NCBI GenBank assembly: GCA_002898255.1
Contig: BEIE01000002.1
Coordinates: 434,001-498,000 of the forward strand
Direction: 5' to 3'
DNA from: a bacterium HR28
GTDB lineage: Bacteria; Chloroflexota; Chloroflexia; Thermomicrobiales; Thermomicrobiaceae
Length of the DNA stretch: 64,000 nt
The number at the start of each line of letters is the position of its first letter. Positions within the stretch are counted from its first letter, which is position 1. This document shows, in pieces, positions 3,446 to 40,859 of this stretch. The notes under the pieces were generated by a model, which had not been told where the DNA came from, searched no databases, and saw nothing but the letters and a program-made list of their open reading frames with translations. A program made the translations under genes and the position numbers.

Positions 3446-4327
3446 ATGGCCAGTATCGAGTACCCGGGTGGTGCTTTCGTCTATGTCGACGGGCGACGGT
3501 GGTTCGTCCGCGAAAGTGGGGAGGGCGAACCGGTTGTTCTTTTGCATGGGATCCCAACCTCCAGCTTCCTGTGGCGCAAGGTGCTGCCGATTCTTGGTCG
3601 GGAACGGCGAGTCATCGCACCTGACCTGCTCGGCTTTGGGCGGTCTGACAAACCCGCACGCGGTGCGAGCACCGTGACCGAGCTCGCTGAACAGCTTGCC
3701 CGGCTGCTCGAACGACTCCAGGTCGAGCGGTGCGCGCTTGTCGGGCACGACGCTGGAGCGCTTGTCGCGGTAGCCCTGCTGGAACGCTGGCCAGAGCGGG
3801 TCACGCACCTCGTTGTGACCAATACCAGTTTCCGTCCGGAACGCTGGCGTGGAGCGGGGTTCTCGCCGCTTTCTCTCCTCCGTGTCCCGCTGCTCGGCGA
3901 TGTGGCGATCGCCTTGGCACGACCCTGGATGTTGCGGCTGGCGATGCGCCCGTTCCTGGCCGATCCGAGCGTGCTCGACCGCGAGACGCTTCGCGGCTAC
4001 TGGGAGCCATTCGAACTTGGCTTTCGTCGCACGCTCGTCCGGCTGGCACGGCAACCGCTCTTCAGTGCGGCTGACCTCGAGCGCTGGCGAGTAGCGCTCA
4101 CTGAACGCTGCGGGGAAGGCAGGATTCCGCTCCTCGTTGCCTGGGGAGCACGCGACCCGCAGTTCCGTCTCGACGAAGCAGAGGAATATGCCAGGACAAT
4201 CGCCGGAGCCCGCTTTCTGGCGTTCATCCATGCGAGCCACTTTCTCCCGGAGGAACGGCCCCGCGCACTTGGGCGCGCGATCGCGGTCTTTCTCGAGCGG
4301 CCGGCGGCGGTTCCGGTGCTGAGTTAA
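3446..4327 (+). CDS. Alpha/beta hydrolase (haloalkane dehalogenase/epoxide hydrolase-like)
   Basis: 293 residues with the complete alpha/beta-hydrolase layout: oxyanion-hole motif VVLLHGIPTSSFLW, then DLLGFGRSDKP, then nucleophile elbow VGHDAGALVA, where the nucleophile is Asp rather than Ser. A late acidic position lies in WGARDPQFRLDEAEEY, and the catalytic His in FIHASHFLPEERP. An Asp nucleophile is typical of haloalkane dehalogenases and epoxide hydrolases, so C-halogen or epoxide hydrolysis is more likely than ester hydrolysis. The ATG follows AGAGGAGG. Its stop overlaps by 4 bases that of the convergent EAL-HDOD gene. Confidence 0.92.
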   Translation: MASIEYPGGAFVYVDGRRWFVRESGEGEPVVLLHGIPTSSFLWRKVLPILGRERRVIAPDLLGFGRSDKPARGASTVTELAEQLARLLERLQVERCALVGHDAGALVAVALLERWPERVTHLVVTNTSFRPERWRGAGFSPLSLLRVPLLGDVAIALARPWMLRLAMRPFLADPSVLDRETLRGYWEPFELGFRRTLVRLARQPLFSAADLERWRVALTERCGEGRIPLLVAWGARDPQFRLDEAEEYARTIAGARFLAFIHASHFLPEERPRALGRAIAVFLERPAAVPVLS

Positions 4328-5568
4328 GGCGCGAGATCAAGCCCGACGAGGGCCTGAGCCGCGAAGGCGAGCGCATCGATAAAGGCCTCGGTTAGGAGCA
4401 TTGGAGTGATGGGGAGATCTGCGAGTGGTGACCAATGCCCGACCTCGTACGAGAGGACAGCGGCGAGCACACGGCCGAGCGGGCCACGGTGGTAGAGCAG
4501 TGCCTCTGTGACCTCGCACGTCAACGGAAGCTCAGCGAGCGCATCGGCCAGAGGTACATCGAGTGCAGCGTCCAGTACCGAGAGAAGTCCGGTGAGGAAA
4601 GCTGTCTCGCGCGACGAGACGCCGAGAGCACCGGCAACAAGCTCGCACATGCGAGCGCGGACGAGTGCAGTACGGACGAGTTCAACTGGCTTCCGTTCGA
4701 TCCCTGCCAGCACAAGCACGGCCACCCAGGCCGCAACGCTCCGCAGACCGAGGACAAGCAGCGCTTGCCGAAGCGACTCCACGCGGGTACGACGGGCGAA
4801 CCAGACCGCGTTGACCAGTTTGAGCAGCTTGTAGGTCAGCTGGACGTCCTGTGCGAGGAGACGCTCGACTTCCTCGAACTCGATAGCTGGATCGCTGAGG
4901 CGAGCAAGGAGGAACAAGGCAGCGCTCGAGACTGGCTGCCGACGCCCACGCACAAGGATCGGACGGAAGAGAAAATCACCCTGGAAGAGATCCACACCTA
5001 GATCGCGCGATCGCACAAACTCCCGGTAGTCCTGGACATCGGACACGAGAACGCGTAGACCACCAGAGCGATAGGATGCGACATCTGCCAGCCGCTCTGT
5101 CAGCCAGCGCTCGAGTGCGCCGCGCCGGTCGAGCTGGGCCCTGGCATGGCGGAGCGAAAGGCGAATGATATCTGCGTCCTCGAAGGGTAGGGGAGTGAAG
5201 AGGGCATGTTCCTCGAGATCAAGGAGCAGTCGGCAGCCACGAGCGAGAAGACGACGAATCACTTCTCGGAGTTCCGGCTCGCGAAGGTCGTCCGGTCCAG
5301 TGGCCAGGACGAGTCGGTCAGCTGGGAGGAGAGGCAGAAGATCCGGCAACAACGAGACGATGACTGGGGGCGGGAGGGAGACGATGGCGAGGCGTACCCC
5401 GACGAGCGCGTCGAGCCCGATCTCAAGGACCGTATCGAGGAAGCGCTGGGCATTCGATGATGCACCTGACTGGAGAGTCGATGCTGGTTGACCGTAATGA
5501 AGTTCGTAAGCGACGGTGTCAAGATGACGATCGAAGACAGGCTGACGGGTAATGAGTACCTCATGCAC
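4324..5568 (-). CDS. EAL-HDOD signalling protein, copy 2
   Basis: 414 residues. The N-terminal half is an EAL-like domain (ITRQPVFDRHLDTVAYELHYG), in which the diagnostic EAL reads YEL. The C-terminal half is an HDOD domain (LAQDVQLTYKLLKLVNAVWF, then SLRQALLVLGLRSVAAWVAVLVLA). Proteins of this YuxH-type architecture usually lack phosphodiesterase activity and act as signalling scaffolds. The GTG at 5568 is preceded by GAGGT, only 7 bases after the stop of the paralogous upstream gene, so the two are co-transcribed. The two proteins are clearly a tandem duplication with diverged sequence. Confidence 0.92.
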   Translation of the reverse strand: MHEVLITRQPVFDRHLDTVAYELHYGQPASTLQSGASSNAQRFLDTVLEIGLDALVGVRLAIVSLPPPVIVSLLPDLLPLLPADRLVLATGPDDLREPELREVIRRLLARGCRLLLDLEEHALFTPLPFEDADIIRLSLRHARAQLDRRGALERWLTERLADVASYRSGGLRVLVSDVQDYREFVRSRDLGVDLFQGDFLFRPILVRGRRQPVSSAALFLLARLSDPAIEFEEVERLLAQDVQLTYKLLKLVNAVWFARRTRVESLRQALLVLGLRSVAAWVAVLVLAGIERKPVELVRTALVRARMCELVAGALGVSSRETAFLTGLLSVLDAALDVPLADALAELPLTCEVTEALLYHRGPLGRVLAAVLSYEVGHWSPLADLPITPMLLTEAFIDALAFAAQALVGLDLAP

Positions 5569-5575
5569 GGCGACC

Positions 5576-6850
5576 TCAGGCGGCCATGGCGAGATCGATC
5601 TCGCGGGCAAGCGCGATGGCATCGAGGTAGGCAGACGTGAGGAGAGAGGGCCGCAAACCGAGCACTGCCAAGCGCTCCCAGTCGCCGCGCTCATAGGCGA
5701 GGACAGCATCGAGGACTGCACCAAGTTCTCCTTGGTGATGAAGCAACGCTGCGCGTAGTTCGTCAGCGAGCGGGAGCGCCGCGAGCAGCTCCTCCATTGG
5801 TTGGTCGAGCAAGGCGTCGAGCACCGAGAGAAGACCGGTCAGAAAAGCGGCCTCACGGCTGGCCCGTCCGCGGGCAGCGGCGACGAGCTCTGCCATCCGC
5901 GCACGGATCACTGCAGTCGTGAGCAGCTCGTGCGGTTTGTCTGGGATATCGGCCATGAGAAGCAAGGTCACCCAGGCCGAGACGAGTCGGGTACCGAGGA
6001 GCAGCAAGGCTTGACGAACTGACTCGATCCGACGCCGACCGTACCAGACGGAGTTGACAAGCCGGAGGAGCCGATAGGTGAGACCAACGTCCAAAGAGAT
6101 GAGTGCTTCCAGTTCGGAGAACTCCACCTCAGGATCTTGCAAACGAGCGAGCAGGAGCAGGAGAGCGCGGTTGGAGGGGGCACGTGTCCACCGGGCTGGG
6201 CGTGGGACAGAGAGGAAGGGACCGGAAAAGAAGGTGACGCGACACTCGCGGCAGCGGTCGTACAGCTCGTAGGTATCAATGTCGGTTGCCAAGAGTTGAG
6301 CCCGGCCAGCCCGAAGTACGTTGGCGAGATCGGCAAGCCCTTCGGGGCTAATCTCCTGACAACTGACTGCGACAAGGTCAACGGTGCGAGCGAACGGCAA
6401 GAACTCAGGCTGTCCCTGGAAACCGGCTAGACCGACGCGGAAGCCGGCCTCACGGAGGGCATCGAGTGCCTTGGCAAGCAATTCATGGTCCGGAACAGGA
6501 TCGAGAGTAACCAGCGCAACGAGACGATCGGGCGGGGCGAGTGAGGCAAGGAAATCACGAGCCGTGAGTGCTGTCGTAGGCGCCAGACGAACTACGGCAA
6601 GTGACTCACCAACGAGGGTGGGGAGACCGATTTCGGCGAGCGCCTCAAGCAAGAGGCGCGCTTCATCACTGGGGACAGGCGGCAAAACGGGCGAGCCTGG
6701 AAGAGTAAGGCGACCTGTCTGTGGTCGTCCTGGCGACGACACCACAGGCTCTGCGAAGCCGAAGCGTCCGGCTACAATCTCGTAGCCCCAGACCTCAAGG
6801 CGCCGCGTGAAGATGGGCTGGCGACGCACGAAGAGGTCACGCATGAACAC
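5576..6850 (-). CDS. EAL-HDOD signalling protein, copy 1
   Basis: About 424 residues, paralogous along its whole length to the gene that follows it. An EAL-like domain begins FVRRQPIFTRRLEVWGYEI, so the EAL signature is replaced by YEI and catalysis is unlikely. It is followed by an HDOD domain (SLDVGLTYRLLRLVNSVWYG, IESVRQALLLLGTRLVSAW). A GTG at 6850 has GGAG six bases upstream. The ATG two codons later (6844) is possible but has worse spacing. It is first gene of a two-gene operon. Confidence 0.92.
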   Translation of the reverse strand: MFMRDLFVRRQPIFTRRLEVWGYEIVAGRFGFAEPVVSSPGRPQTGRLTLPGSPVLPPVPSDEARLLLEALAEIGLPTLVGESLAVVRLAPTTALTARDFLASLAPPDRLVALVTLDPVPDHELLAKALDALREAGFRVGLAGFQGQPEFLPFARTVDLVAVSCQEISPEGLADLANVLRAGRAQLLATDIDTYELYDRCRECRVTFFSGPFLSVPRPARWTRAPSNRALLLLLARLQDPEVEFSELEALISLDVGLTYRLLRLVNSVWYGRRRIESVRQALLLLGTRLVSAWVTLLLMADIPDKPHELLTTAVIRARMAELVAAARGRASREAAFLTGLLSVLDALLDQPMEELLAALPLADELRAALLHHQGELGAVLDAVLAYERGDWERLAVLGLRPSLLTSAYLDAIALAREIDLAMAA

Positions 6851-7299
6851 CCACGACTCCTTTCTCTGGAGAAGGATCGGCATGCCCCGCAGCCATCAGC
6901 TGGGAGCGATGTCCAGAATTCTTTGGGACTTCTTGGCCAGGCCAGAGAGGTATGCTCTCGCAGTGCTGAGCACGGGTAGGGGGACCAGCATTTCCTCGAG
7001 CCTTCACGCGGGAGAGCGACTTCCTTGTGGTTTTCACATGATGGAGTGCAGTGTCGACCCAAGCAAGGCGTGCGGATGGCGTTTGCCGCGCACCGACAGG
7101 AAGAGTTCCCGGAGGATCACGATTGGTTGCGCCCCTTCCCTCGGCGTCTCTAACAGGGGCAGCTGACGTGCGGAGGGCTGCCTCAGCCGGAGCGGTAGGG
7201 GTGGCAGCGTGTGGTGGATGGAAAACTGCACCAGCCAGGCAGCCAGTTCCACACTGCAGAGGCTCACCTCGCCGAGTCGCTCGGATGCAAGGAAATCAC
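6851..7299. other. Intergenic, about 450 bp, no gene seen
   Basis: It lies upstream of the EAL-HDOD operon and should contain its promoter. I could not identify a convincing -35/-10 pair. Overlapping open frames lack ribosome binding sites. Confidence 0.4.
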
Positions 7300-9247: not shown

Positions 9248-10807
9248 TCACCCCACCTCGCAGCCGATGCCATCGCCATCTGGGTCAAAGCGGTGTGGGT
9301 CAGGCGGAAGCACGGGGAAGCGACGGTACGGGATATCAGAGCAGTCGAGGTCAGGCGGGGGTGGTGGGAGACAGACCGTCGGATAACTTGGATCGCAGGT
9401 GGGCGACGGGCTCGGCTCGGGCGTGGGAGTCGGATTGGGGGTAGGCGGAGGCAGTGGCTCCTGCCCTCCCCCGACCGGGGAACTCGGGCAAACACCCCAG
9501 AGCCCGACTCGCTCTTCGCGAGCGACACGCTCGGCCTCGCGGAAGCGCCAGGCGTACTTCACATCGGGCGGATAGGTAGTGACCCCAGCGTATCCTTCAC
9601 GGACGAGGAGTTCGTTGAAGAGGTAGGGACCGATCCAGACATACCGCAAAAGCCGGCCGTAGCGATCTGTTTCTGAGACGTCGCGTTCGAGGGCAACCTG
9701 CTTGCGGTTGAGCCACGCAGCGGTGAACTGCGAGGCAGCGATGCCAAAGCATTCCACTTCGCCATAGACCTCGGGCGTATCCACGCCGATGAGCCGGACT
9801 CGGGCGGTCCGTCCGTCGGCGAACTCGACATCGATCGTGTCGCCGTCGACAACGTTCGTCACCGTAGCGAGTTCGTAGACACCAGCCTGCTGCGGGGTCC
9901 GGCCGAGCTGCTCGTAGCGCCAGCGGTAGTAGTGCTGACCAATGTTGCCGGCCTCAACCTGCCAACCCGGCGGATTTTCTGGGGTATAGGTAAGGCAGCG
10001 ACGTTCGAAGCACTGAACGAGCACATCGCGAGGCGTGCCAGCGACCCGGACACGAACCCAGTAGGGTTCGGTAATGGGGAAGCCGGTGGCATAGAACGGG
10101 TTAGGGAAGAGCGCGTCAACCTGGAAGCGCCAGGCCGTGTAGACCGTTCCCCGAGCGTTCATGAAGTCCCAGAACACCGAGGCAACACTGTGGTTCGTCT
10201 CCGGGACGAGCACAGCGGCGGTCACTGCGTAGCGGGCGAGGCCGGGGTCGTCCCGGACGATTCCGGCGTTGTCCAATGTCTGAGTGACCACGGAACCCAC
10301 CGGAAGTGGTGCGGCGGCGAGGAGGTGCGCGAAGTTGGCATAGGTCGGAGCGTTGGGATCATCAGGATCGCCAGCGACGTTGACCTGAGCAGGAGGTACA
10401 GGCTGGAACGTCGTGTCGCCGAGTTGGAGTTGACCAGTGATGAGCTCCTTAGCGAGGAGACCATTGGTGACGTACCAGGGGGAGGAGCGATCGGCGAGAG
10501 GGTTGGTGATCTCCATCCGAGACTTATCGAAGTACTGGACGAGACGGGAGCCACCGGGTGCCTCGGCGTAGGGTTCACGGAGTGGCGTGGTGAACGGTTC
10601 AGGGCCCCACATCCAAGTGCGGCTGACGCGACCCTGGGCGACGGGAAGGTCGCTCCGGGCCCAGGTATCGAGGAAGGCATCGTGCCCGGTGGGAGCAGCA
10701 CGGGCGGGTAGGATAGGAATGCCAGAGAAAAGAAGGGCAGTGAGCAGAAGAAACAAGCTCACGCCAGATCGCCAGACATGTCGAAAGGCACCTACCGCAC
10801 GCAGCAT
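9248..10807 (-). CDS. Secreted staphylococcal-nuclease-like protein with accessory module and Excalibur domain
   Basis: 519 residues. Residues 1-37 are a signal peptide ending near LPARAAP. Residues about 44-298 form an accessory module of unknown function, also present in the subtilase at 38781-40859. Residues about 310-440 are a thermonuclease domain with the metal-binding VVDGDTIDV, RLIGVDTPE (candidate catalytic Arg338 and Glu346) and DRYGRLLRYV. A proline-rich linker follows, then a C-terminal Excalibur-type calcium-binding motif, DPDGDGIGCE. It is predicted to cleave extracellular nucleic acid. The ATG at 10807 is chosen because GGAGG lies five bases upstream and the signal peptide then starts correctly. 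The longer frame is unlikely. Confidence 0.92.
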   Translation of the reverse strand: MLRAVGAFRHVWRSGVSLFLLLTALLFSGIPILPARAAPTGHDAFLDTWARSDLPVAQGRVSRTWMWGPEPFTTPLREPYAEAPGGSRLVQYFDKSRMEITNPLADRSSPWYVTNGLLAKELITGQLQLGDTTFQPVPPAQVNVAGDPDDPNAPTYANFAHLLAAAPLPVGSVVTQTLDNAGIVRDDPGLARYAVTAAVLVPETNHSVASVFWDFMNARGTVYTAWRFQVDALFPNPFYATGFPITEPYWVRVRVAGTPRDVLVQCFERRCLTYTPENPPGWQVEAGNIGQHYYRWRYEQLGRTPQQAGVYELATVTNVVDGDTIDVEFADGRTARVRLIGVDTPEVYGEVECFGIAASQFTAAWLNRKQVALERDVSETDRYGRLLRYVWIGPYLFNELLVREGYAGVTTYPPDVKYAWRFREAERVAREERVGLWGVCPSSPVGGGQEPLPPPTPNPTPTPEPSPSPTCDPSYPTVCLPPPPPDLDCSDIPYRRFPVLPPDPHRFDPDGDGIGCEVG

Positions 10808-10810
10808 CGA

Positions 10811-10824
10811 TCCTCCAAGGAGGA
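10811..10824 (-). promoter_or_regulatory. Hairpin that pairs the Shine-Dalgarno of the nuclease gene
   Basis: On the minus strand the segment reads TCCTCCTTGGAGGA, so the GGAGG ribosome binding site can pair with CCTCC immediately upstream (five base pairs, CTTG loop). This could lower translation at reduced temperature, but the stem is short and the effect is inferred. Confidence 0.35.
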
Positions 10825-11392
10825 GAGCCATCGCCACGCGAACGGGATAGCAGCCCCGACAGGCTATTGGACTATTCAACCTCTTTACCCTACTAAAGTT
10901 TACCAGGGCAGAGGAGGACGGGCAAGTCATCAACAGTGAGATGAGTGAGCATGATTTCAGCACAGGCATTGCGCGCGAGCAGCCCACATGTTGACAAGGT
11001 AGGCCATCCTATGCGGGATGACCCCTCAGGCCAGTGACAGCGATGTGCGGATAGTGCGACCGGTTCAGCACCCCTAAGGTTCATTGTGCTGAGCGAAGCA
11101 GTTTCCCAAGGCAACTGCGAGATGACGGATTCTCAACGGCTAACCCGCTGTTAGCCATTGCATACCGGTCTGGGAAACGGTGTTGGGAGCTCGCAGCTGT
11201 GGGGAGCTAGTGGGCGCGATACCTGAGAACACTGTCGTGGTCGCCACCAGAGTAGCGTAGCTGAAGGGATCGTCAGGAAACCCGTTCCGACAGTACAGGG
11301 ACACCCGGAAAGAGTCGCGCCCCAACAATTCGGGTGCTCGCTGGCACCAGACGGTGGGGAGCGACTGCAAGGTGACTGTTAGGTTGCTCCTC

Positions 11393-11422
11393 TAGGATAG
11401 GAATCGGTGAGAGCGCTCTCAC
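11393..11422 (+). promoter_or_regulatory. Candidate promoter -10 and palindromic operator of the peptide locus
   Basis: A TAGGAT box at 11393-11398 is followed after 8 bases by the perfect 16-bp palindrome GTGAGAGCGCTCTCAC (11407-11422). The palindrome would overlap the transcription start, 38 bp before the first peptide's start codon. Position and symmetry suggest a dimeric repressor site. No clear -35 box was found. Confidence 0.4.
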
Positions 11423-11460
11423 AGGCCGGTTCGATGCAACGCACCAAGGGAGGTGCAGGG

Positions 11461-11694
11461 ATGTACTCGCAGAACTGGATCGAGTTGGAGGTCGTGACGG
11501 AGTTGCCGGAGCGGTTGGAGACCGTGCTGCTCTTCGCCGCTATCCAACAGAGCAACACTGCCGCGCAAGGTGGTGTCATGACCCACAACAACGAGGACAC
11601 GGGCATCAATGGCGGCGGTAACGGCAGCGGCATCAACCAGCAGAACTTCGCCAAGGTTCTGCAACAAGTGTGGTACCGACGCGTCCGCAACTAG
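11461..11694 (+). CDS. Small peptide 1, candidate precursor with LPER leader
   Basis: 77 residues. The ATG follows GGGAGGTG, a strong ribosome binding site. The first about 27 residues (WIELEVVTELPERLETVLLF) align without gaps to the next peptide through the pattern W-x3-E-x-V-x2-LPER-x2-T-x2-LF. The middle is rich in Asn and Gly (HNNEDTGINGGGNGSG) and is not shared. The end contains QQNFAKVLQQ, matching QLNIANVIQI in peptide 2. A conserved leader with a variable middle is the usual layout of ribosomally made, processed peptides. The downstream M50 protease supports this, but no modification enzyme is present. Confidence 0.72.
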   Translation: MYSQNWIELEVVTELPERLETVLLFAAIQQSNTAAQGGVMTHNNEDTGINGGGNGSGINQQNFAKVLQQVWYRRVRN

Positions 11695-11731
11695 CTAAAA
11701 CGAGTGAACCCATCGCCTCTGGGGGTGTCTT

Positions 11732-11762
11732 GGCTGGCTTCCGGCCGAGCCGGAAGCCAGCC
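11732..11762 (+). terminator. Strong hairpin between the two peptide genes
   Basis: A perfect 14-bp inverted repeat, GGCTGGCTTCCGGC and its complement, with the three-base loop CGA. No T-tract follows, so it may be a partial terminator or a 3' stabiliser. It would let peptide 1 be made in excess over peptide 2 and the protease. Confidence 0.6.
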
Positions 11763-11805
11763 CTTACCAAATGGGTGGACGATATAGCGATGAGAGGAGG
11801 CTCCG

Positions 11806-12021
11806 ATGGAACGCACATGGCTTACAGAAGAACGCGTGAGTGTCCTACCAGAGCGGATGGTCACCGGGCCGCTGTTCACCGTTGGTCTGCAATTTCAACA
11901 AGGTAACTGGGCGAACGCTGGCGGGAACACCTGCTTTGCTGGTTGCCCGACTATCATCATCCAACTCAACATTGCGAACGTTATCCAGATCGCGATGGCC
12001 CGAAGTGGTCGCGGTCGGTAA
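11806..12021 (+). CDS. Small peptide 2, candidate precursor with LPER leader
   Basis: 71 residues, paralogous to peptide 1 at both ends. The leader is WLTEERVSVLPERMVTGPLF. The middle GNWANAGGNTCFAGCP contains two Cys three residues apart. The C-terminal QLNIANVIQI motif is followed by a basic tail, ARSGRGR. The ATG lies behind GAGAGGAGG. The stop is 50 bp before the M50 protease start, so both are probably on one transcript. The Cys pair could form a disulfide or thioether, but no enzyme for this is visible nearby. Confidence 0.72.
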   Translation: MERTWLTEERVSVLPERMVTGPLFTVGLQFQQGNWANAGGNTCFAGCPTIIIQLNIANVIQIAMARSGRGR

Positions 12022-12071
12022 GGAGGCCAGGCCGGCACCTCCATTCACTCCTAATGTGAGAAGGTGAGGCG

Positions 12072-13439
12072 ATGATGGCGACCGAGGTGCTCCGGGCACT
12101 GCGAGAGAAATACGCACGCGAGCAGGCAAGGGAGAAGCCTTGGATCGAGTATCCGGCACGGATACCGCATATCGAACTTCTCGGCCGGATGCCGGACTCG
12201 GCGTTTGATCAGGAACAATGGTTGGTGGCGGTGCGTGGTCAGCACTTCGCGCTCACGCCGATCCTCTATCGCATTCTCGAGGAGGCGGATGGACGAACAT
12301 CGGCCGCGGAGATTGCGGAACGTGTCTCGCACCTGGTGGGGCGCGAACTCAGTGCTGCAGATGTTCGATGGTTGATCGAACACCGCTTGATACCAGCCGG
12401 ATTAATTCAGGCGGGGAGAGCAGAAACGCGGCAGGCTGAGGCAGCTGAAGAACGGTCGAGACCGCTGCTAAAGATCCGTGCACGAGTCCCCCTCTTGCAA
12501 CCGCAATGGATTGCTCCTCTCACTGGGATATTGCAGTACCTGTTTTGGAGACCGGTCGCCATCGTTGCCCTTGCCCTTATCGGATTCATGCATCTCTGGA
12601 TTTATACTGCTGGCACATCAGCACTTGGCGAGGCGACACGGCTCCTCTTCATTGAGCCGCGTTGGATCTTACTGGTCTTCGCAATGGAGATCGGTGCCTC
12701 GTTGTTCCACGAGTTCGGGCATGCCGCCGCGATGCGGCGATCGCGTTGCCCACACGGCCCAATCGGTTTTGGAATTTATCTTATCTGGCCTGTGTTCTTT
12801 ACCGATGTGACGCCGATCTACCGACTACGGCGGAGCGAGCGACTCCGCGTGGATCTCGGGGGCATGTATTTCCACCAGATCGCGGCGCTCGCGTTCATGG
12901 CTCTGTATGCTGCAAGTGGCTGGCCGCTCTGGCTCCTTGGCGTGATCATCGCTGATGTGCAGTGTCTTCGTCAGCTGAACCCATTCTTCCGCTTCGATGG
13001 ATACTACGTCTTGGCTGATCTCTTGGGGATTCCTGATCCCTTGAGCCACATTCGGCCGTACCTGCAGAGCTTGTTTCGGCGCGGGTCATACACCGGTCTA
13101 CGTCTGCGACGAACGACGCACCTCCTTTTTGCCGGGTATCTGGGCCTCGTGGCTATCTACTTCATCCTTCCGTATGCGTTTGGGATCCAATTCGGGAAGG
13201 AAGTGATTCAGACAATCTGGTTGACTGGGGTCGGACTTCAACATGCCTTGGTCGCGGCTTGGGAAATTCGCGACGCACTACTACTGGCAGCGGTAGCCGT
13301 CCAAGCATTCTTCTGGCTGCTCTCAGTACTGGGGCTCGCCCTCTTCTGCTGGACGGCTTTCTCATTGACCGGGCTCCTGCTGCGCAGACTGTTCGCTTTC
13401 GGGCGTCCCTGGCACAGAGTCGCTGGACGGCACCGATAG
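12072..13439 (+). CDS. PqqD-like domain fused to a membrane M50 metalloprotease
   Basis: 455 residues. Residues about 48-112 (WLVAVRGQHFALTPILYRIL through VRWLIEHRLIPAGLI) look like a PqqD-type winged helix, the fold that recognises leader peptides in RiPP pathways. The rest is polytopic membrane protein with the zinc site HEFGH at residues 213-217 and the third-ligand region NPFFRFDGYY (Asp309), as in site-2 protease/M50 'peptide zinc metalloproteases'. It likely cleaves or exports a membrane-bound peptide, and the two peptides upstream are the obvious substrates. AAGGTGAG precedes the start. It is last gene of the locus. Confidence 0.88.
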   Translation: MMATEVLRALREKYAREQAREKPWIEYPARIPHIELLGRMPDSAFDQEQWLVAVRGQHFALTPILYRILEEADGRTSAAEIAERVSHLVGRELSAADVRWLIEHRLIPAGLIQAGRAETRQAEAAEERSRPLLKIRARVPLLQPQWIAPLTGILQYLFWRPVAIVALALIGFMHLWIYTAGTSALGEATRLLFIEPRWILLVFAMEIGASLFHEFGHAAAMRRSRCPHGPIGFGIYLIWPVFFTDVTPIYRLRRSERLRVDLGGMYFHQIAALAFMALYAASGWPLWLLGVIIADVQCLRQLNPFFRFDGYYVLADLLGIPDPLSHIRPYLQSLFRRGSYTGLRLRRTTHLLFAGYLGLVAIYFILPYAFGIQFGKEVIQTIWLTGVGLQHALVAAWEIRDALLLAAVAVQAFFWLLSVLGLALFCWTAFSLTGLLLRRLFAFGRPWHRVAGRHR

Positions 13440-13742: not shown

Positions 13743-14510
13743 TTATGCGTGTCCACGAAGGGATGAAAACGAGGCAACGGTATCGGCGGCTCGACGCTGC
13801 TCGGTCGGCGTAACGACGGCGCGAGGAGGACGAAACACGTATCCGACCCCACGAATAGTGCAGAGAAATTGCGGATGATCAGCATCGGCCTCGAGTTTTA
13901 GGCGCAGACGACGAATTACGACCTCGAGCCGATTGCCTCCACTTCCGTAATCGTAGCCCCATACTCGCTCAATCAGACGGTCACGCGGGATAACGATACC
14001 CGCGTTGCGGAGGAGACACTCGAGAACGCGCGTCTCCGTGGGAGAAAGGGAGACTGTGCGCTGGTCAGGAAGTGTCAGGGTGCAGGCAAGGACATCAAGG
14101 ACAAAGGGGCCTACACGGACAACAACACCCGGGTACTCTGAGTACGCACGGCGCGCCAGTGCTTCGACTCGTGCCAAGAGTTCGGCTGGCTCTCCTGGCC
14201 AGGAGAAGACATCATCGGCACCCTTCTGAAAGCAGGCGAGACGAAACTCAAAACTCGCATCGCGGGTGAGGATTAAGATACCGCCGCTGTATCCGCCGCT
14301 ACGGAGCTGCTCACACAAGGCCAACCCGTCGTTCCCACTCCCCTCGGGGAAACCCTTAGCGCCCAGGAGAACCACACGTACATCGCTCTCAGCCAGACGC
14401 AGGAGTGCACTCGCAGAGGTAACGCGCAGTACGCGGTGACCGCGCCGCACGAGGAGCACCTGGAGTATGTCGTCGAGAACATCATCCTTAAGGTAGAGTC
14501 CAATATCCAT
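13743..14510 (-). CDS. OmpR-family response regulator with degenerate receiver
   Basis: 255 residues. Receiver domain about 1-120, winged-helix DNA-binding domain about 131-227 (LSPTETRVLECLLRNAG, VIRRLRLKLEADA, TIRGVGYVF). The acidic pocket keeps Asp9-Asp10. The phosphoacceptor position at the end of strand 3 is Gly50 (VVLLGAKG), and the conserved Lys is replaced by Trp104 (FSWPGEP). Phosphorylation-independent control is therefore likely. No histidine kinase is adjacent. The ATG at 14510 follows GAGGGGG. It probably shares a regulatory region with the upstream glycosyltransferase gene. Confidence 0.9.
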   Translation of the reverse strand: MDIGLYLKDDVLDDILQVLLVRRGHRVLRVTSASALLRLAESDVRVVLLGAKGFPEGSGNDGLALCEQLRSGGYSGGILILTRDASFEFRLACFQKGADDVFSWPGEPAELLARVEALARRAYSEYPGVVVRVGPFVLDVLACTLTLPDQRTVSLSPTETRVLECLLRNAGIVIPRDRLIERVWGYDYGSGGNRLEVVIRRLRLKLEADADHPQFLCTIRGVGYVFRPPRAVVTPTEQRRAADTVASFSSLRGHA

Positions 14511-14603
14511 GACTAATTTCCCCCTCGCTGGGCCTGCTCCCTGTGACGACGATCCAACGTGCGAGCGTCGCATCCCATCGCGACAGGGGGTGTCTTCAAA
14601 CCT

Positions 14604-14782: not shown

Positions 14783-16666
14783 TCAAGGACGTGCTTGGGC
14801 AGTCGGCAGGGGAAGACGTGCCAGAGTACCAGCACGCTGCTGGGCCACGAGGTCAACGAAAAGGAGCTCCAAGAGCACGCGCACCTTATCTTGACCATCA
14901 TGATAAAACTGTATGCCGACCCGGGACGAACCGTTTCGATCTGCTCGGGCATAGATGAGCCGCCCCCACAAAGAGAGGCGGGCGTTGAGCAACTCAAGAT
15001 GCACATCCGTGCTGACCGGCTCAAGTACTTGCGGAAACAAGACACCAGCACCATCCCGCGACAGGTCACTCACAAGGCATGGGAAGATTCCTGCGCCGGG
15101 GATCTCCAGACGAGCTGGCAGAGCGACCGGAAACCGGTAGGATACACGACGATAGCGACGTCGAAGCACCCGCGCGAGCGTCATTCCGAGCGCCATGCCA
15201 TTCAGCGCAGACCAGAATGTCCCAATCGCCAGAAGGCTCGAGGAGTGAGCAGCCAGTGGTGAAGGAAGTCCGAGGAGGCTGACGAGACCCAGGAGACTGG
15301 AGAATGTCATGGTAACTCCGAGAACTATGAGCCGGAGCAGCGCGCGACGCTCTGTCCACACATCATTGGCAAAAGACTTGGGAGTGACGCGGAAACGCAG
15401 GCGAACGGGGAAGATAACGACCAACGCTGCACGGATATAGATCAACATTTTCAGTATGTTGTAGTGCTCGACCCAAACGATCCGAAACCACCCGCGACCG
15501 AGCAACCACGCTGCCAGATAACACCCGAAGAAATACGCAAGCCAATGCAGAATAAAGACTAATCCATTGGACCGTATTGGCATCCAGCCAAACCAGATCA
15601 TTCCGAGGGGCACAACGAGAAACACTAGCTTTTGGAACCCGTCGAAGTAAGTGAGCATCGAACCAAGGTAATTGAGGCGCTGTGCAATGGTGAGACCAGG
15701 GACAATGAGCGGGTTCTCGCGACTACGCAGGATGCGCAGCGCCCCCTGTGCCCAGCGCAGGCGTTGGAGCATAAACGCGCGATAGGTCTGCGGCGCAATA
15801 CCATAGGCGACTACCTGATCGTGATAGACCGTCCGCCACCCCTGCGCATGTAAACGAAGAGACGTAAGGATGTCCTCAGTGATGCTGTGCGCCACGCCGC
15901 CGACAGATTCAAGGGCCACACGCCGCACGACAGACGGGCTACCGCACCAGAACGCCGCATTCCAGCGGTTCTTGCCGGGTTGGATGACTCGGAAGAACAG
16001 TGACTGTTCATGCCACGGGAGGGAACCATTCCCGGTCGCCACATGCTGAAGCGAATCGAAGTTGTAGAACTCCTGCGGGCATTGCACGAGTGCTACACGA
16101 TCATCGATGAAGTATCCGAGCGTCTGGTGCAGGAAGTCAGGTTGCGGAATCATGTCAGCATCAAGAAATGCAATGAACTCACCATCAGTACGGGGAAGTG
16201 CGGCGTTGATGTTGCCGGCTTTCCCGTGCCGGTTATCAGGGCGTGTAAGATAGCGGCAACCCAACCGGGAAGCAAGAGCCTCCACTTCCGGTCGGCGACC
16301 ATCATCAAGTACATAGGTGGTATGGGGATACCGGATGCGCTGGCAGCCGGTGAGCGTCGCCTCGAGGACCTCGAGGGGCTCATCATAGGTCGTCACATAG
16401 ACATCCACCTTTAGGCCCTCACGCAACTCGAAACGCGGTCGAACACGGATATTCCAGGTCATGAAGGCGAAGAAGAGAAGGTTGAGAACTCCCCAAGCCT
16501 CGGCTGCGAGTAGCAGCAACGACACTATCAGGGCATCCGGGTTCAATGTTGCAACGATCCGCCAACCGATGTAATAGAGCAAGTACAACACAATGATAAG
16601 AATGGCAGATCGCCACACTAACTCTTTCCATTTACGCTCTCTTGTAGTCTGTTCTTGCTCGATCAT
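14783..16666 (-). CDS. Cellulose-synthase-like GT2 glycosyltransferase with PilZ domain
   Basis: 627 residues. Two N-terminal membrane segments are followed by a processive GT2 catalytic domain with all key motifs: DDG at 121-123, DAD at 169-171, TED at 263-265 and QRLRW at 301-305. Further membrane segments follow. A C-terminal PilZ domain has RRRYRRVSYR and DLSRDGAG, the c-di-GMP-binding signature. It should polymerise a beta-linked polysaccharide across the membrane under c-di-GMP control. No BcsB/C partners are nearby, so it is a single-subunit form. The ATG at 16666 has GGGAG eight bases upstream. A GTG at 16699 has none. Confidence 0.92.
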   Translation of the reverse strand: MIEQEQTTRERKWKELVWRSAILIIVLYLLYYIGWRIVATLNPDALIVSLLLLAAEAWGVLNLLFFAFMTWNIRVRPRFELREGLKVDVYVTTYDEPLEVLEATLTGCQRIRYPHTTYVLDDGRRPEVEALASRLGCRYLTRPDNRHGKAGNINAALPRTDGEFIAFLDADMIPQPDFLHQTLGYFIDDRVALVQCPQEFYNFDSLQHVATGNGSLPWHEQSLFFRVIQPGKNRWNAAFWCGSPSVVRRVALESVGGVAHSITEDILTSLRLHAQGWRTVYHDQVVAYGIAPQTYRAFMLQRLRWAQGALRILRSRENPLIVPGLTIAQRLNYLGSMLTYFDGFQKLVFLVVPLGMIWFGWMPIRSNGLVFILHWLAYFFGCYLAAWLLGRGWFRIVWVEHYNILKMLIYIRAALVVIFPVRLRFRVTPKSFANDVWTERRALLRLIVLGVTMTFSSLLGLVSLLGLPSPLAAHSSSLLAIGTFWSALNGMALGMTLARVLRRRYRRVSYRFPVALPARLEIPGAGIFPCLVSDLSRDGAGVLFPQVLEPVSTDVHLELLNARLSLWGRLIYARADRNGSSRVGIQFYHDGQDKVRVLLELLFVDLVAQQRAGTLARLPLPTAQARP

Positions 16667-17105
16667 GCGCTTACTCCCATCCAGCCGTTCGCCGATCACT
16701 GGTCAAAAGGAGGTCACTGCCAGCACCATAGCTCCTGTAGCTGACAGCGACCTGACAGTCCGGCCGAGGACAAAACCGTTGAGCGAGGAAATCATCGACA
16801 GGAACGACTTCGCGGCTGTGTCATCCTGACGGTCCCGTCGCCTTGCTGACGATCTCAACAGGGCGAGGCGCCCTCAGGAAGCACCGGCCGGTTCACAAAG
16901 GGATATCCACCACCATGGAAACAAGCCGTTTGCAGCATCTTTCCTCATTACCTGCAGAAATTCGTGTTGCTGCTGTGGCAAGGAGATGCTCAAATGCTGC
17001 CAAGCTGACATGGAGCTGGGTGAGGCTGGTCATACGATCTGGCCTCTTCAGCCAGCGCCGAGCCAGAGATCTGGCAAGTTGGGGAGCGAGCGAGAGGATA
17101 CGATA
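16667..17105. other. Divergent intergenic region, about 440 bp
   Basis: It lies between the glycosyltransferase (minus) and the MFS transporter (plus) and should hold promoters for both. I see no gene and no confident promoter. Confidence 0.4.
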
Positions 17106-21310: not shown

Positions 21311-21952
21311 TCACAGGTTCTCAGCACTGGAGGAAGAAGCACTCTGGACACAACGGGCGGAGTCGCTCTCCATTCCCGGTGGTCGCCAGTAGGTTCGCCA
21401 ACCCTGGTTGCGAAGTCGGGCGCCGCGCGGGACTCCGGCCACAACCAACGCAGCGGCCAGGAGATCACCACCGGAGCCAAGCGCGTTGAAGACACCGAAG
21501 GTCAGCAAGAAGTCCTCCCATGGTGGGACAAGCTGTGTGAGGATCAGTGTCACGAGGCTGATGGCACTGAGCGGAAGGAGTGCGACGAGGAGCCAGCGGG
21601 CTCGCCCGAGCTCACCATTGTAGTGCACATAGACCAGTGCCGCACGGGGCCAGACGCCGACGACGAGCTGCGGCGAACCGAGCGATCCCGGTACCGCGAC
21701 CGCATGAAGGAGTTCGTGTACCGGGACGAACAAGAGGAGCGCGACGACGGCTCCCTGGCCGAAAGAGAGAACGAACTCACCAGTCGGATGGAGGAGCAGC
21801 GCCAGCACGAGGTAGCCGACCGCAGCGAGGGCGCCGAGCGGTAGAGCGAGGACGATGACAGCAGCGATATGGCGCGGTTCGCGGAGTGCTCGCCAGGGCG
21901 GCTGAGGATCAAAGGACGGGTCAGGGGGCGGCGGACCGAAAAGGATACGCAT
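21311..21952 (-). CDS. DUF3267-like membrane protein with HExxH (putative zincin)
   Basis: 213 residues with about four membrane segments. The motif HELLH within VPVHELLHAVAVPG matches the zinc site of DUF3267/YfjP-like putative membrane metalloproteases, followed by conserved-looking ALVYVHYNGELGRARWLLVALLPL. The substrate is unknown and proteolysis has not been shown for most of the family. The ATG follows GAGGGAA. A TTGACC/GGTCAA inverted repeat lies upstream at 22022-22038 and could be an operator. Confidence 0.78.
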   Translation of the reverse strand: MRILFGPPPPDPSFDPQPPWRALREPRHIAAVIVLALPLGALAAVGYLVLALLLHPTGEFVLSFGQGAVVALLLFVPVHELLHAVAVPGSLGSPQLVVGVWPRAALVYVHYNGELGRARWLLVALLPLSAISLVTLILTQLVPPWEDFLLTFGVFNALGSGGDLLAAALVVAGVPRGARLRNQGWRTYWRPPGMESDSARCVQSASSSSAENL

Positions 21953-22738
21953 AGAGTTCCCTCACTCGGTGGCCAGGACTGATCGACTCACCTCCAGGCG
22001 GTGAGCGTATCACTCATTGCTTTGACCAGCGAGGTCAACGGTGTGGCAAGAGCGGGTCGCTTGCGGGGTGGCTCACTCGGGCAGTCGCCTGCTGGTGGCG
22101 GGTGGGAGGTGATGGGGCGGAGCCTGCCAGCACCAGGGACGCTTCATGTCATCCTGTGCTGTCCACTGCGCTGGCCGTACGCGGCCAAGGCCGAGTCGTC
22201 GCAGAGGTATCGAAGACCAGCGCGGCGGGCATCCTGTGGTACTGCAGTGAGACCCAGACCGGGAAGCTGCCGCGAGACCGAGTACTTGGCACCCAAACTC
22301 TGGACAGTAGAGCCTAGTGCAGGGCTGGGAACTCGAGGCGACGGGCCTGCTCCGTGTAGCGAGCGCTTGTCATCGCTCTCATTGCGGCGGCTCCTGAGTC
22401 TCCTTCCGGCGCCCCAAGAGTCGACGGTCGGCGAGTGGAGGGCGGCAACGTTATCTATCCGAGGCTGGAGGGAGTAGAACCAAAGGCATTGGGCGGATGT
22501 TGGGGGTGTCGAAAGGTGAAGCGCGAGGAGAAATCTGTGGGGGAGGGCGGGAAGACAGTGACTGGTGAAGGCAGCAATATGGAGCGGACCATGCTGCACA
22601 GCGTGGCCGAGCAGCTCGACCGTATCAGTGGCGGCAGATGAGACTGAAGAAGCCCAAGGAACCTGCTGACAACGCGCAAGGGCTGTGGCAGTTCCTCCGT
22701 TGCTCGGCGCAGCGCCACTTGGCCCGTACCGGCCGGTG
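21953..22738. other. Intergenic, about 790 bp, no gene seen
   Basis: It lies between the DUF3267-like gene and the first solitary CRISPR repeat. It contains the inverted repeat TTGACC-N5-GGTCAA (22022-22038). Open frames lack ribosome binding sites. No further repeat copies are present. Confidence 0.45.
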
Positions 22739-38780: not shown

Positions 38781-40859
38781 GTGAGACGATCGCGTAGAGA
38801 CAAACGCACCCCCCAACGGCAGGCGGCAAATTCTCTTCTCTGCTTCCTCATTTGTGCGCTTGCCCTGGCACTGGGATGGCCGCAGCCAGTGGCTCCGATC
38901 GCACGCGCGCAATCTGCCGACGCGGTGAGCGCGCTCGAGTGGTCGGTCGCAGTGGATCCGGCAAGCTGCCGCACTGGGGCGAAGCGCGGCATTCCATCTT
39001 GTCTGCTGCAGGTGCCTGCACAGATGGAGCCAATCGACCCGGTCGGGGAATGGTGGCGAGTCTCCTTCGGCACGCGCCGGGAGGCAGCCGATTGGGTTGC
39101 CCGGTTGCTTGCTTGGCCGGGGGTGGAATTCGTCGAGCCGGCAGTGCGGATGAACTACCAGTGGATCCCGGGAGATCCGCTCGTCCCGCAACAAAGCTGG
39201 CTTCAGGCCACCGGATTTCCCACCGCCTGGGAGGAGACGATCGGGCGGAGCGATGTGGTGGTGGCGGTCATCGATTCGGGCATTGCGGTCGAGCACCCTG
39301 ATCTGGCGGAGAAGCTTCTGCCGGGATACGACTACCTCCACCGCGATCCGGTACCGGAAGACGAGGTCGGACACGGAACCGCCGTTGCGGGGATCATCGC
39401 GGCAGCAGTGAATGGAGTAGGGATCTCGGGAGGAGCTCCAGGTGTGCGGATCCTCCCGCTCAAGGTGGGCGATCAGGTCGGAGCGAGCTCACTGGCGATT
39501 GCAGAAGCGATTTATGGAGCAATCGAGCGTGGCGTACAGGTGATCAACTTAAGCTTGGGTGCCGATACGCCGAGCGCGACGCTCGAGCGGGCGATCGAGC
39601 AGGCCTACGACCAGGGGATCATTGTCGTCGCCGCGGCAGGAAATACGCCAGACGCGGTGACCTTCCCGGCCAGCTACCCAGAAGTGATCGCGGTCGGTGG
39701 CGCGACGGCAGACGGGAAGCGGCTGGCGAGCTTTACATCGCGGCTGACGCGGGTCGATCTCGTCGCGCCGGCCGAGGAAATACTGACGACAAACTGGGAT
39801 GGGCAGGAGCCGGGTTGGGAGTTCCGTACTGGCACGTCGTTCGCAGCGCCGATGGTGAGCGCGGCCGCTGCGCTCGTGCGCTCGGTGGCACCGGACAGCA
39901 GTGTCGAGTGGGTGCGACAGGCGCTGCGGGAGACAGCCCGCCCGCTTGATCCGCCTGGTCAACCGGGAGCGGGAAGCGGGCTACTCGCGGCGGACGGAGC
40001 AGTCGAGCGTGCCGTGCTGCGCCGCTTCGCGCAGGCCTGGCAGCGCGCTGATCTTCCGGTCGCAGCAGGGGCAGCGACGCGCTCCTGGCTGTGGGGGCCG
40101 AGCGCCTTCGCGGTGACACGCGAGCCGTACCAGGAGACACGGGCCGGCACGCGCGCTGTGGCCTACTTTGACAAGGCGCGGTTGGAGCTCACCGATCCTG
40201 ACCGACCACCAGACGATCCGTGGGCCGTGACCTCGGGCCTCCTGGCGAAGGAACTCCTCACCGGACTCCAACAGGTGGGCGACGCCGCGTTCATTCGCCG
40301 GCAACCGGCAGCGGTGCCAGTTGCCGGCGATCCCGATGACCAGACGGCACCGACCTACGCCACGCTCGGCCTTGTACTCGACGCTGCCCCGCTTGGGGAG
40401 GGAGAACCGATCGTCTGGACCATCGACCGGACCGGGCGGATTGAGCAGCAAGCCCGGCTAGCGCAGTACGGCGTGTTGGCCGGGCCGCTGGTGGAAGAGA
40501 CGGGACATCGGGTGGCCTCGGTCTTCTGGGACTTTCTCCAGCAGCGCGGCGTGGTCTATGCGGGCGGTATGTTTCGCACAGACTCGCTGTTCTGGCCGCC
40601 GTTTGCAGTGACCGGCTTCCCGATCACCGAGGCGTATTGGACGCGGGCCAAAGTAGCGGGGATTGAGCGCGACGTGCTGGTGCAGTGCTTCGAACGGCGC
40701 TGTCTGACCTATACGCCAGATAACCCACCAGGTTGGCAGGTAGAGCTTGGCAACGTGGGCCAACATTACTACCGCTGGCGGTACGGAGCGCTACCAAGTG
40801 GTCCGGTACCGAATGACCCGACGACGATGGCGCCGGTGGACGGTAGCGGGCGTGGCTGA
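38781..40859 (+). CDS. Secreted subtilisin-like protease with the shared accessory module
   Basis: 692 residues. Signal peptide about 1-43 (CFLICALALALGW to ARAQ). Residues about 50-125 form a short inhibitor-like prodomain. The S8 catalytic domain has Asp165 (VIDSGIAVEHPD), His198 (VGHGTAVAGI), Asn288 (AAAGN) and Ser353 (GTSFAAPM). Residues about 413-676 are the same accessory module that precedes the nuclease domain in the gene at 9248-10807, ending with nearly identical LVQCFERRCLTYTP and QHYYRWRY segments. Its role could be surface attachment or substrate binding. No other partner is visible. Confidence 0.93.
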   Translation: MRRSRRDKRTPQRQAANSLLCFLICALALALGWPQPVAPIARAQSADAVSALEWSVAVDPASCRTGAKRGIPSCLLQVPAQMEPIDPVGEWWRVSFGTRREAADWVARLLAWPGVEFVEPAVRMNYQWIPGDPLVPQQSWLQATGFPTAWEETIGRSDVVVAVIDSGIAVEHPDLAEKLLPGYDYLHRDPVPEDEVGHGTAVAGIIAAAVNGVGISGGAPGVRILPLKVGDQVGASSLAIAEAIYGAIERGVQVINLSLGADTPSATLERAIEQAYDQGIIVVAAAGNTPDAVTFPASYPEVIAVGGATADGKRLASFTSRLTRVDLVAPAEEILTTNWDGQEPGWEFRTGTSFAAPMVSAAAALVRSVAPDSSVEWVRQALRETARPLDPPGQPGAGSGLLAADGAVERAVLRRFAQAWQRADLPVAAGAATRSWLWGPSAFAVTREPYQETRAGTRAVAYFDKARLELTDPDRPPDDPWAVTSGLLAKELLTGLQQVGDAAFIRRQPAAVPVAGDPDDQTAPTYATLGLVLDAAPLGEGEPIVWTIDRTGRIEQQARLAQYGVLAGPLVEETGHRVASVFWDFLQQRGVVYAGGMFRTDSLFWPPFAVTGFPITEAYWTRAKVAGIERDVLVQCFERRCLTYTPDNPPGWQVELGNVGQHYYRWRYGALPSGPVPNDPTTMAPVDGSGRG

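Follow-up and report, generated by a model that had tools for sequence, protein, structure and literature searches.

The locus considered here lies in a window of 64,000 nucleotides (the whole stretch of DNA that was analysed) on contig C2 of the 3.1 Mb genome of bacterium HR28 (G000). It consists of two short open reading frames, pepA and pepB, followed on the same strand by the gene for a predicted membrane protease of the M50, or site-2 (S2P), type with a PqqD-like leader-recognition domain (RRE) at its N-terminus. The features are summarized in Table 1. The likely start codons of the two small frames are the ATGs at 11461 and 11806, and purine-rich, Shine-Dalgarno-like stretches, GGGAGGTG and GAGAGGAGG, occur one per frame. 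An earlier note on this DNA had begun the first frame at 11393; the existence of that frame stands, but the ATG at 11461 is the likelier start.

Table 1. Features of the peptide–protease locus and its surroundings (window coordinates)
Feature	Position	Strand	Description
pepA	11461..11694	+	77-aa precursor; leader NWIELEVVTELPERLETVLLF; Asn/Gly-rich middle; C-terminal QQNFAKVLQQ and basic tail
Hairpin	11732..11762	+	GC-rich, 14-bp, perfect; pepA-pepB intergenic; no T-run; region z -3.13
pepB	11806..12021	+	71-aa precursor; leader TWLTEERVSVLPERMVTGPLF; core with GGNTCFAGC and QLNIANVIQ; basic C-terminus
RRE-fused M50/site-2 protease	12072..13439	+	455 aa; from motifs and family-model matches
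PqqD-like RRE domain	12144..12437	+	Protease residues 25-122; from profile, PDB and AF2/Foldseek comparisons
HEFGH zinc/catalytic motif	12708..12722	+	HExGH in 23/23 homologues; H213, E214, G216, H217 invariant
RFDGY second S2P motif	12990..13004	+	R307, D309, G310, Y311 invariant in 24 sequences
Orphan OmpR-type response regulator	13743..14573	-	Convergent with the protease gene; same place in G009, 49% identical

The two small proteins have in common an ungapped leader pattern, W-x3-E-x-V-x2-LPER-x2-T-x2-LF, with 10 of 20 positions identical, and a C-terminal motif, Q-x-N-[FI]-A-x-V-[LI]-Q; neither the score of the leader match nor the 9-mer match at the C-terminus was reached in any of 500 shuffles. 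Outside these two regions the proteins are unlike one another. The earlier note had described just this arrangement, of a gap-free leader, a common C-terminal motif and differing middles, and each part of that description is correct. It had also failed to recognize the precursor family, and the libraries name no such family either: no model in Pfam, NCBIfam or PHROGs names pepA or pepB. The proteins end in Asn and Arg, respectively, and neither has a clear transmembrane helix as judged from 19-residue hydropathy, for which the maxima are 0.9 (pepA) and 1.5 (pepB). By eye, both contain a short Q-x-N-x-A...Q likeness to the curlin repeat; no curlin Pfam match was found for either at E<=1.

There is good reason to regard pepA and pepB as genes. 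In another genome of the same genus (G002), the order pepA-pepB-RRE is kept; the pepA orthologue, which retains LPER, is 70% identical and the pepB orthologue 75% identical. The single pairwise comparison of these short frames between G000 and G002 gives pN/pS values of 0.41 for pepA and 0.22 for pepB; on these alignments, synonymous change is in excess in both. A genome from another genus of the same family (G009) keeps the order pepA-pepB-protease, with LPAR and LPDR replacing LPER; its pepB orthologue is the one with LPDR, in the context NRCFAGCPTIVVQLNIA. It could be argued, from the shortness of the frames and from their being named by no library model, that they are untranslated or lie close to the protease gene by coincidence. 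We consider this very improbable, as it is contradicted by the synonymous excess, by the order kept in two genera and by the phylum-wide reciprocal co-occurrence described below.

The locus is patchy within the genus, since three further genomes (G001, G003 and G005) have neither a relative of the protease nor a clear pepB match. In G002 a deletion has taken the catalytic half of the protease together with the response regulator, and has left pepA, pepB and the RRE intact; that assembly is fragmented (170 contigs), and the loss may be real decay or an assembly artefact. A putative protease of the S2P clan (DUF3267; 21380-21979, minus strand) is encoded 8 kb from the locus and is syntenic in G002. 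It was considered as a stand-in protease in that genome and rejected, as it occupies the syntenic position in G000 and also occurs in G003, where there is no clear pepB match.

Several comparisons address the N-terminal domain of the protease. Its profile-profile score against PqqD is 25.2; none of 100 column shuffles exceeded 21.1, and other segments of the protease gave 5-9.5. A search of PDB sequences with the domain profile gives PqqD (3g2b) as the best match, at E 0.0075. The best of five AF2 models of the domain has a pLDDT of 81.5 and a pTM of 0.75 (the other four have pLDDT 55-63), with the topology beta-beta-beta-alpha-alpha-alpha. When this model is used in Foldseek, the list is led by PqqD (5sxy), the TruD RRE and TbiB1, at E 0.014-0.09, and continues with further RRE-bearing enzymes mixed with some winged-helix methyltransferases; VIA-align likewise returns RREs and other winged helices, at Z 6-8.5, which is a middling range. 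On profile and model evidence, then, the N-terminus has the PqqD-type RRE fold, a winged helix-turn-helix in which a three-stranded sheet is followed by three helices, as the earlier note had proposed when it read the gene as a fusion of a leader-recognition fold to a membrane M50 protease.

The HEFGH motif reported as intact in that reading is indeed present, as is RFDGY, and both are invariant in 24 sequences at the positions given in Table 1; the HExGH...RxDGY combination is intact in all 23 listed homologues. By analogy, the Asp of RFDGY would be a zinc ligand. The NCBIfam models for the daptide protease (NF041824) and for LiaK/YydH (NF058609) are matched by 24 of 24 clade members. The scores of the window protease are 82 bits against a cut-off of 300 for the former and 27.2 bits against 225 for the latter, and it scores 14.4 bits with Pfam PF02163, for which the cut-off is 27.2. 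An AF2 model of the whole 455-residue protein, built with three sequences, is poor (pLDDT 43), and the assignment of the S2P fold therefore rests on the motifs and family models.

The distribution of the peptides and the protease across genomes indicates that the two belong together. A search of 400 Chloroflexota genomes with a relative of the window protease gave matches in 29, of which 19 were strong. Loci were read for 23 clade members, namely 21 chromosomal ones from Chloroflexota with usable flanks and two on Streptomyces plasmids. A small frame with LPxR (LPDK in G143) lies beside the protease gene in all 23. In 21 it is on the same strand within 700 bp upstream, as against 12 of 676 control windows (1.8%) and 0 of 23 when the opposite strand is read as a control. 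Reciprocally, a profile made from 13 LPxR peptides found 18 positive genomes among the 400, 16 of which are among the 19 with a strong protease match (Fisher 1e-23). The earlier note had held that its proposal would fail if such peptides did not accompany M50 genes in other genomes; they do so in both Chloroflexota and Streptomyces.

The precursors of typical relatives follow the pattern ELExQ...ELPDREQMSLINANVAAPINAAVAANVLSDGSVAYANAEQTN.I.Q and number from one to five per locus. In the protease tree, the window protease and its G009 counterpart stand apart on a deep branch (100/98), and this branch has a precursor type of its own, in which LPxR lacks the following E. Paired cysteines occur in the peptides of many relatives, and a CxxGC-type pair (CFAGC) is conserved in pepB. 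One locus (L157 7272-7877, from G290) has LPNRE precursors with an N-terminal CPDCG zinc-ribbon-like extension. At another (L158 6290-7728), LPxRE peptides adjoin a response regulator but no protease gene; some LPxR peptides thus stand apart from any protease gene, and they may act in trans or have another role. Of the M50 homologues with weaker matches (E above 1e-35; L039-L048), only L040/L071 have such a leader alongside; there, LPERLNN precursors of thiocillin-like character (22.6 bits, cut-off 25) lie beside a different M50; at L071 (7418-9956; G202, same class) the sequence LPERLNNAA occurs in precursors that fall just under the thiocillin model cut-off.

No close relative of the window was found among plasmid records, and no relative in viral contigs; PADLOC gave no match that would point to a defence role. 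Searches of open-access papers with leader and core strings returned nothing relevant, and no earlier description of the system was found in open papers.

The neighbourhood bears on what the locus might do. The frames directly beside it show no modification enzyme or ABC transporter, in agreement with the original reading, and a Pfam scan of 88 neighbour frames across the loci revealed no recurrent one among the 25 most frequent of 115 families. This matters for the possibility of true RiPPs, in which the modification would be done by enzymes from elsewhere in the genome or by an extracytoplasmic partner domain of the protease, with the RRE serving those enzymes as well. Modifying enzymes are the usual clients of RREs, paired cysteines are found in pepB and in many relatives, and four relatives have DUF3105, a domain without known function, fused to the C-terminus of the protease. 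Nevertheless, the lack of a recurrent modifying-enzyme family in the scan and the absence of DUF3105 from the window protease lead us to regard this explanation as unlikely.

The C-terminus of the protease varies in other ways. Several relatives have Ser/Pro-rich tails, and from the fused tails and domains this end of the protein is probably extracytoplasmic. The G009 protease has a C-terminal domain that is also the N-terminal domain of an SNase/Excalibur secreted-type protein encoded next to the locus in the window (9248-10987, minus strand; see also 40026-40763, plus strand); Pfam has no name for it. With 9-15 matches per genome in this family, the domain was rejected as a specific functional link.

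The commonest family among the 88 frames is that of response regulators (5/88), ECF sigma factor genes adjoin two other loci, and the OmpR-type regulator convergent with the window protease gene is a possible regulator of the locus. Such neighbours, with response regulator or ECF sigma/anti-sigma genes at several loci, could also be taken to mean that the protease is a site-2 protease of the signalling kind, acting on some other substrate, and that the small proteins are RRE-bound regulators or adaptors and not precursors; the retention of the peptides in G002, where the catalytic half of the protease is lost, fits this too. We think it improbable, more so than the existence of modifying enzymes elsewhere, since paralogous peptides with a common leader, divergent cores and one to five copies per locus are precursor-like, since separate M50 proteases are encoded in the genome, and since the nearest protease models are those of peptide-maturation proteases.

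Two EAL/HDOD-like genes and a cellulose-synthase/PilZ-like gene (4324-5724, 5576-6883 and 14783-16699, all on the minus strand) were recognized by eye in the flanks, and a c-di-GMP setting for the locus is possible from that reading. The hairpin between pepA and pepB has strong counterparts in the equivalent intergenic regions of two other genomes (z -1.5 in G002 and -3.6 in G009); the arm sequences differ among the three genomes, and Rfam gave no match. It is possible that the hairpin is an attenuator or an mRNA-stability element; that it governs how much pepA is made relative to the downstream genes is a guess.

Three known systems resemble the locus in part. The daptides (Microbacterium mpa cluster) also have an N-terminal RRE fused to an S2P (MpaP), which removes the leader, as is predicted here, and each locus likewise encodes several short precursors that combine a conserved leader motif with an aliphatic core. 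They differ in that no oxidative decarboxylase, aminotransferase or methyltransferase was recognized among the frames next to the window locus, and in having the leader ELExMEAP and a C-terminal Thr where the window peptides have LPER and C-terminal Asn or Arg; on leader, C-terminus and protease score, daptide membership is rejected. In epipeptides (EpeX/YydF with EpeP/YydH, and LiaK), an M50 intramembrane protease is likewise linked to a short precursor, but no radical SAM epimerase was seen beside the window locus, an RRE is part of the window protease, and the score of that protease lies below the cut-off of the protease equivalog. TMcins, in which the S2P-clan protease TmcP (DUF3267) removes the leader of TmcA at the membrane, as is also predicted here, differ in protease type, that of the window being M50-type with an RRE; membership is rejected on this ground, on the lack of a clear transmembrane helix in pepA and pepB and on the DUF3267 gene, which is 8 kb distant and occurs as well in a genome that lacks a clear pepB match.

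Our preferred reading, to which we assign a probability of about 0.7, is that the LPxR leader is bound by the RRE and cleaved near LPxR by the S2P core, and that the core peptide is released outside the cell with neither an ABC transporter nor an enzyme dedicated to modification taking part. The loss of the catalytic half in G002 and the peptides that stand apart from a protease gene count against this reading. On this view the locus gives rise to two ribosomal peptides, from precursors whose N-terminal leaders end in LPxR. The fold and the genomic linkage suggest that the cytoplasmic RRE of the membrane protein would bind this leader, whereupon the fused protease would cut soon after the LPxR region, removing the leader, and the core would exit on the outer face. 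The protease itself may be the release route, because no gene for a transporter or a modifying enzyme was seen alongside. In several relatives the extracytoplasmic tail or domain may retain or process the core once it has been released. The logic of recognition, cleavage and release put forward in the earlier note is supported in this way by the predicted RRE fold, the S2P motifs and the linkage. These steps are reasonable in the light of published analogues: daptide leaders are removed by the RRE-S2P MpaP (PMC10036551), and the cut comes after the leader motif even though the residues at P1/P1' vary (PMC12670281); EpeP, an M50 protease, is thought both to cleave and to export EpeX (PMC10885120); and TmcP cleaves TmcA within the membrane (PMC13252029).

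Beyond cleavage, and perhaps a disulfide in pepB, the product probably carries no modification, and its role is most likely that of a secreted or surface-bound peptide pair; the three candidates of the earlier note, an antimicrobial, a signal and a surface peptide, all stand. Because peptides and protease are associated in many genomes of Chloroflexota and on two Streptomyces plasmids, the locus looks like a minimal, as yet undescribed route to the production and release of ribosomal peptides. A broader proposal, to which we would give rather less than even odds, is that a single protein serves all the steps after translation, the RRE reading LPxR, the S2P cutting and releasing, and the extracytoplasmic tail or domain receiving the product, in a widespread class of ribosomal peptides of Chloroflexota and Actinomycetota; the two products from the window would act as a pair at the cell surface.

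To our knowledge, few peptide products are known from Chloroflexota, and the ELPxRE pattern would open a precursor family in this phylum that can be searched for. If the preferred reading is true, a leader and an RRE-protease, with neither modifying enzyme nor ABC transporter, would be a minimal unit for peptide production, and DUF3105 would gain a possible setting. Such loci would then test whether an intramembrane protease alone can recognize, cut and export a peptide, a question that has been raised for EpeP.
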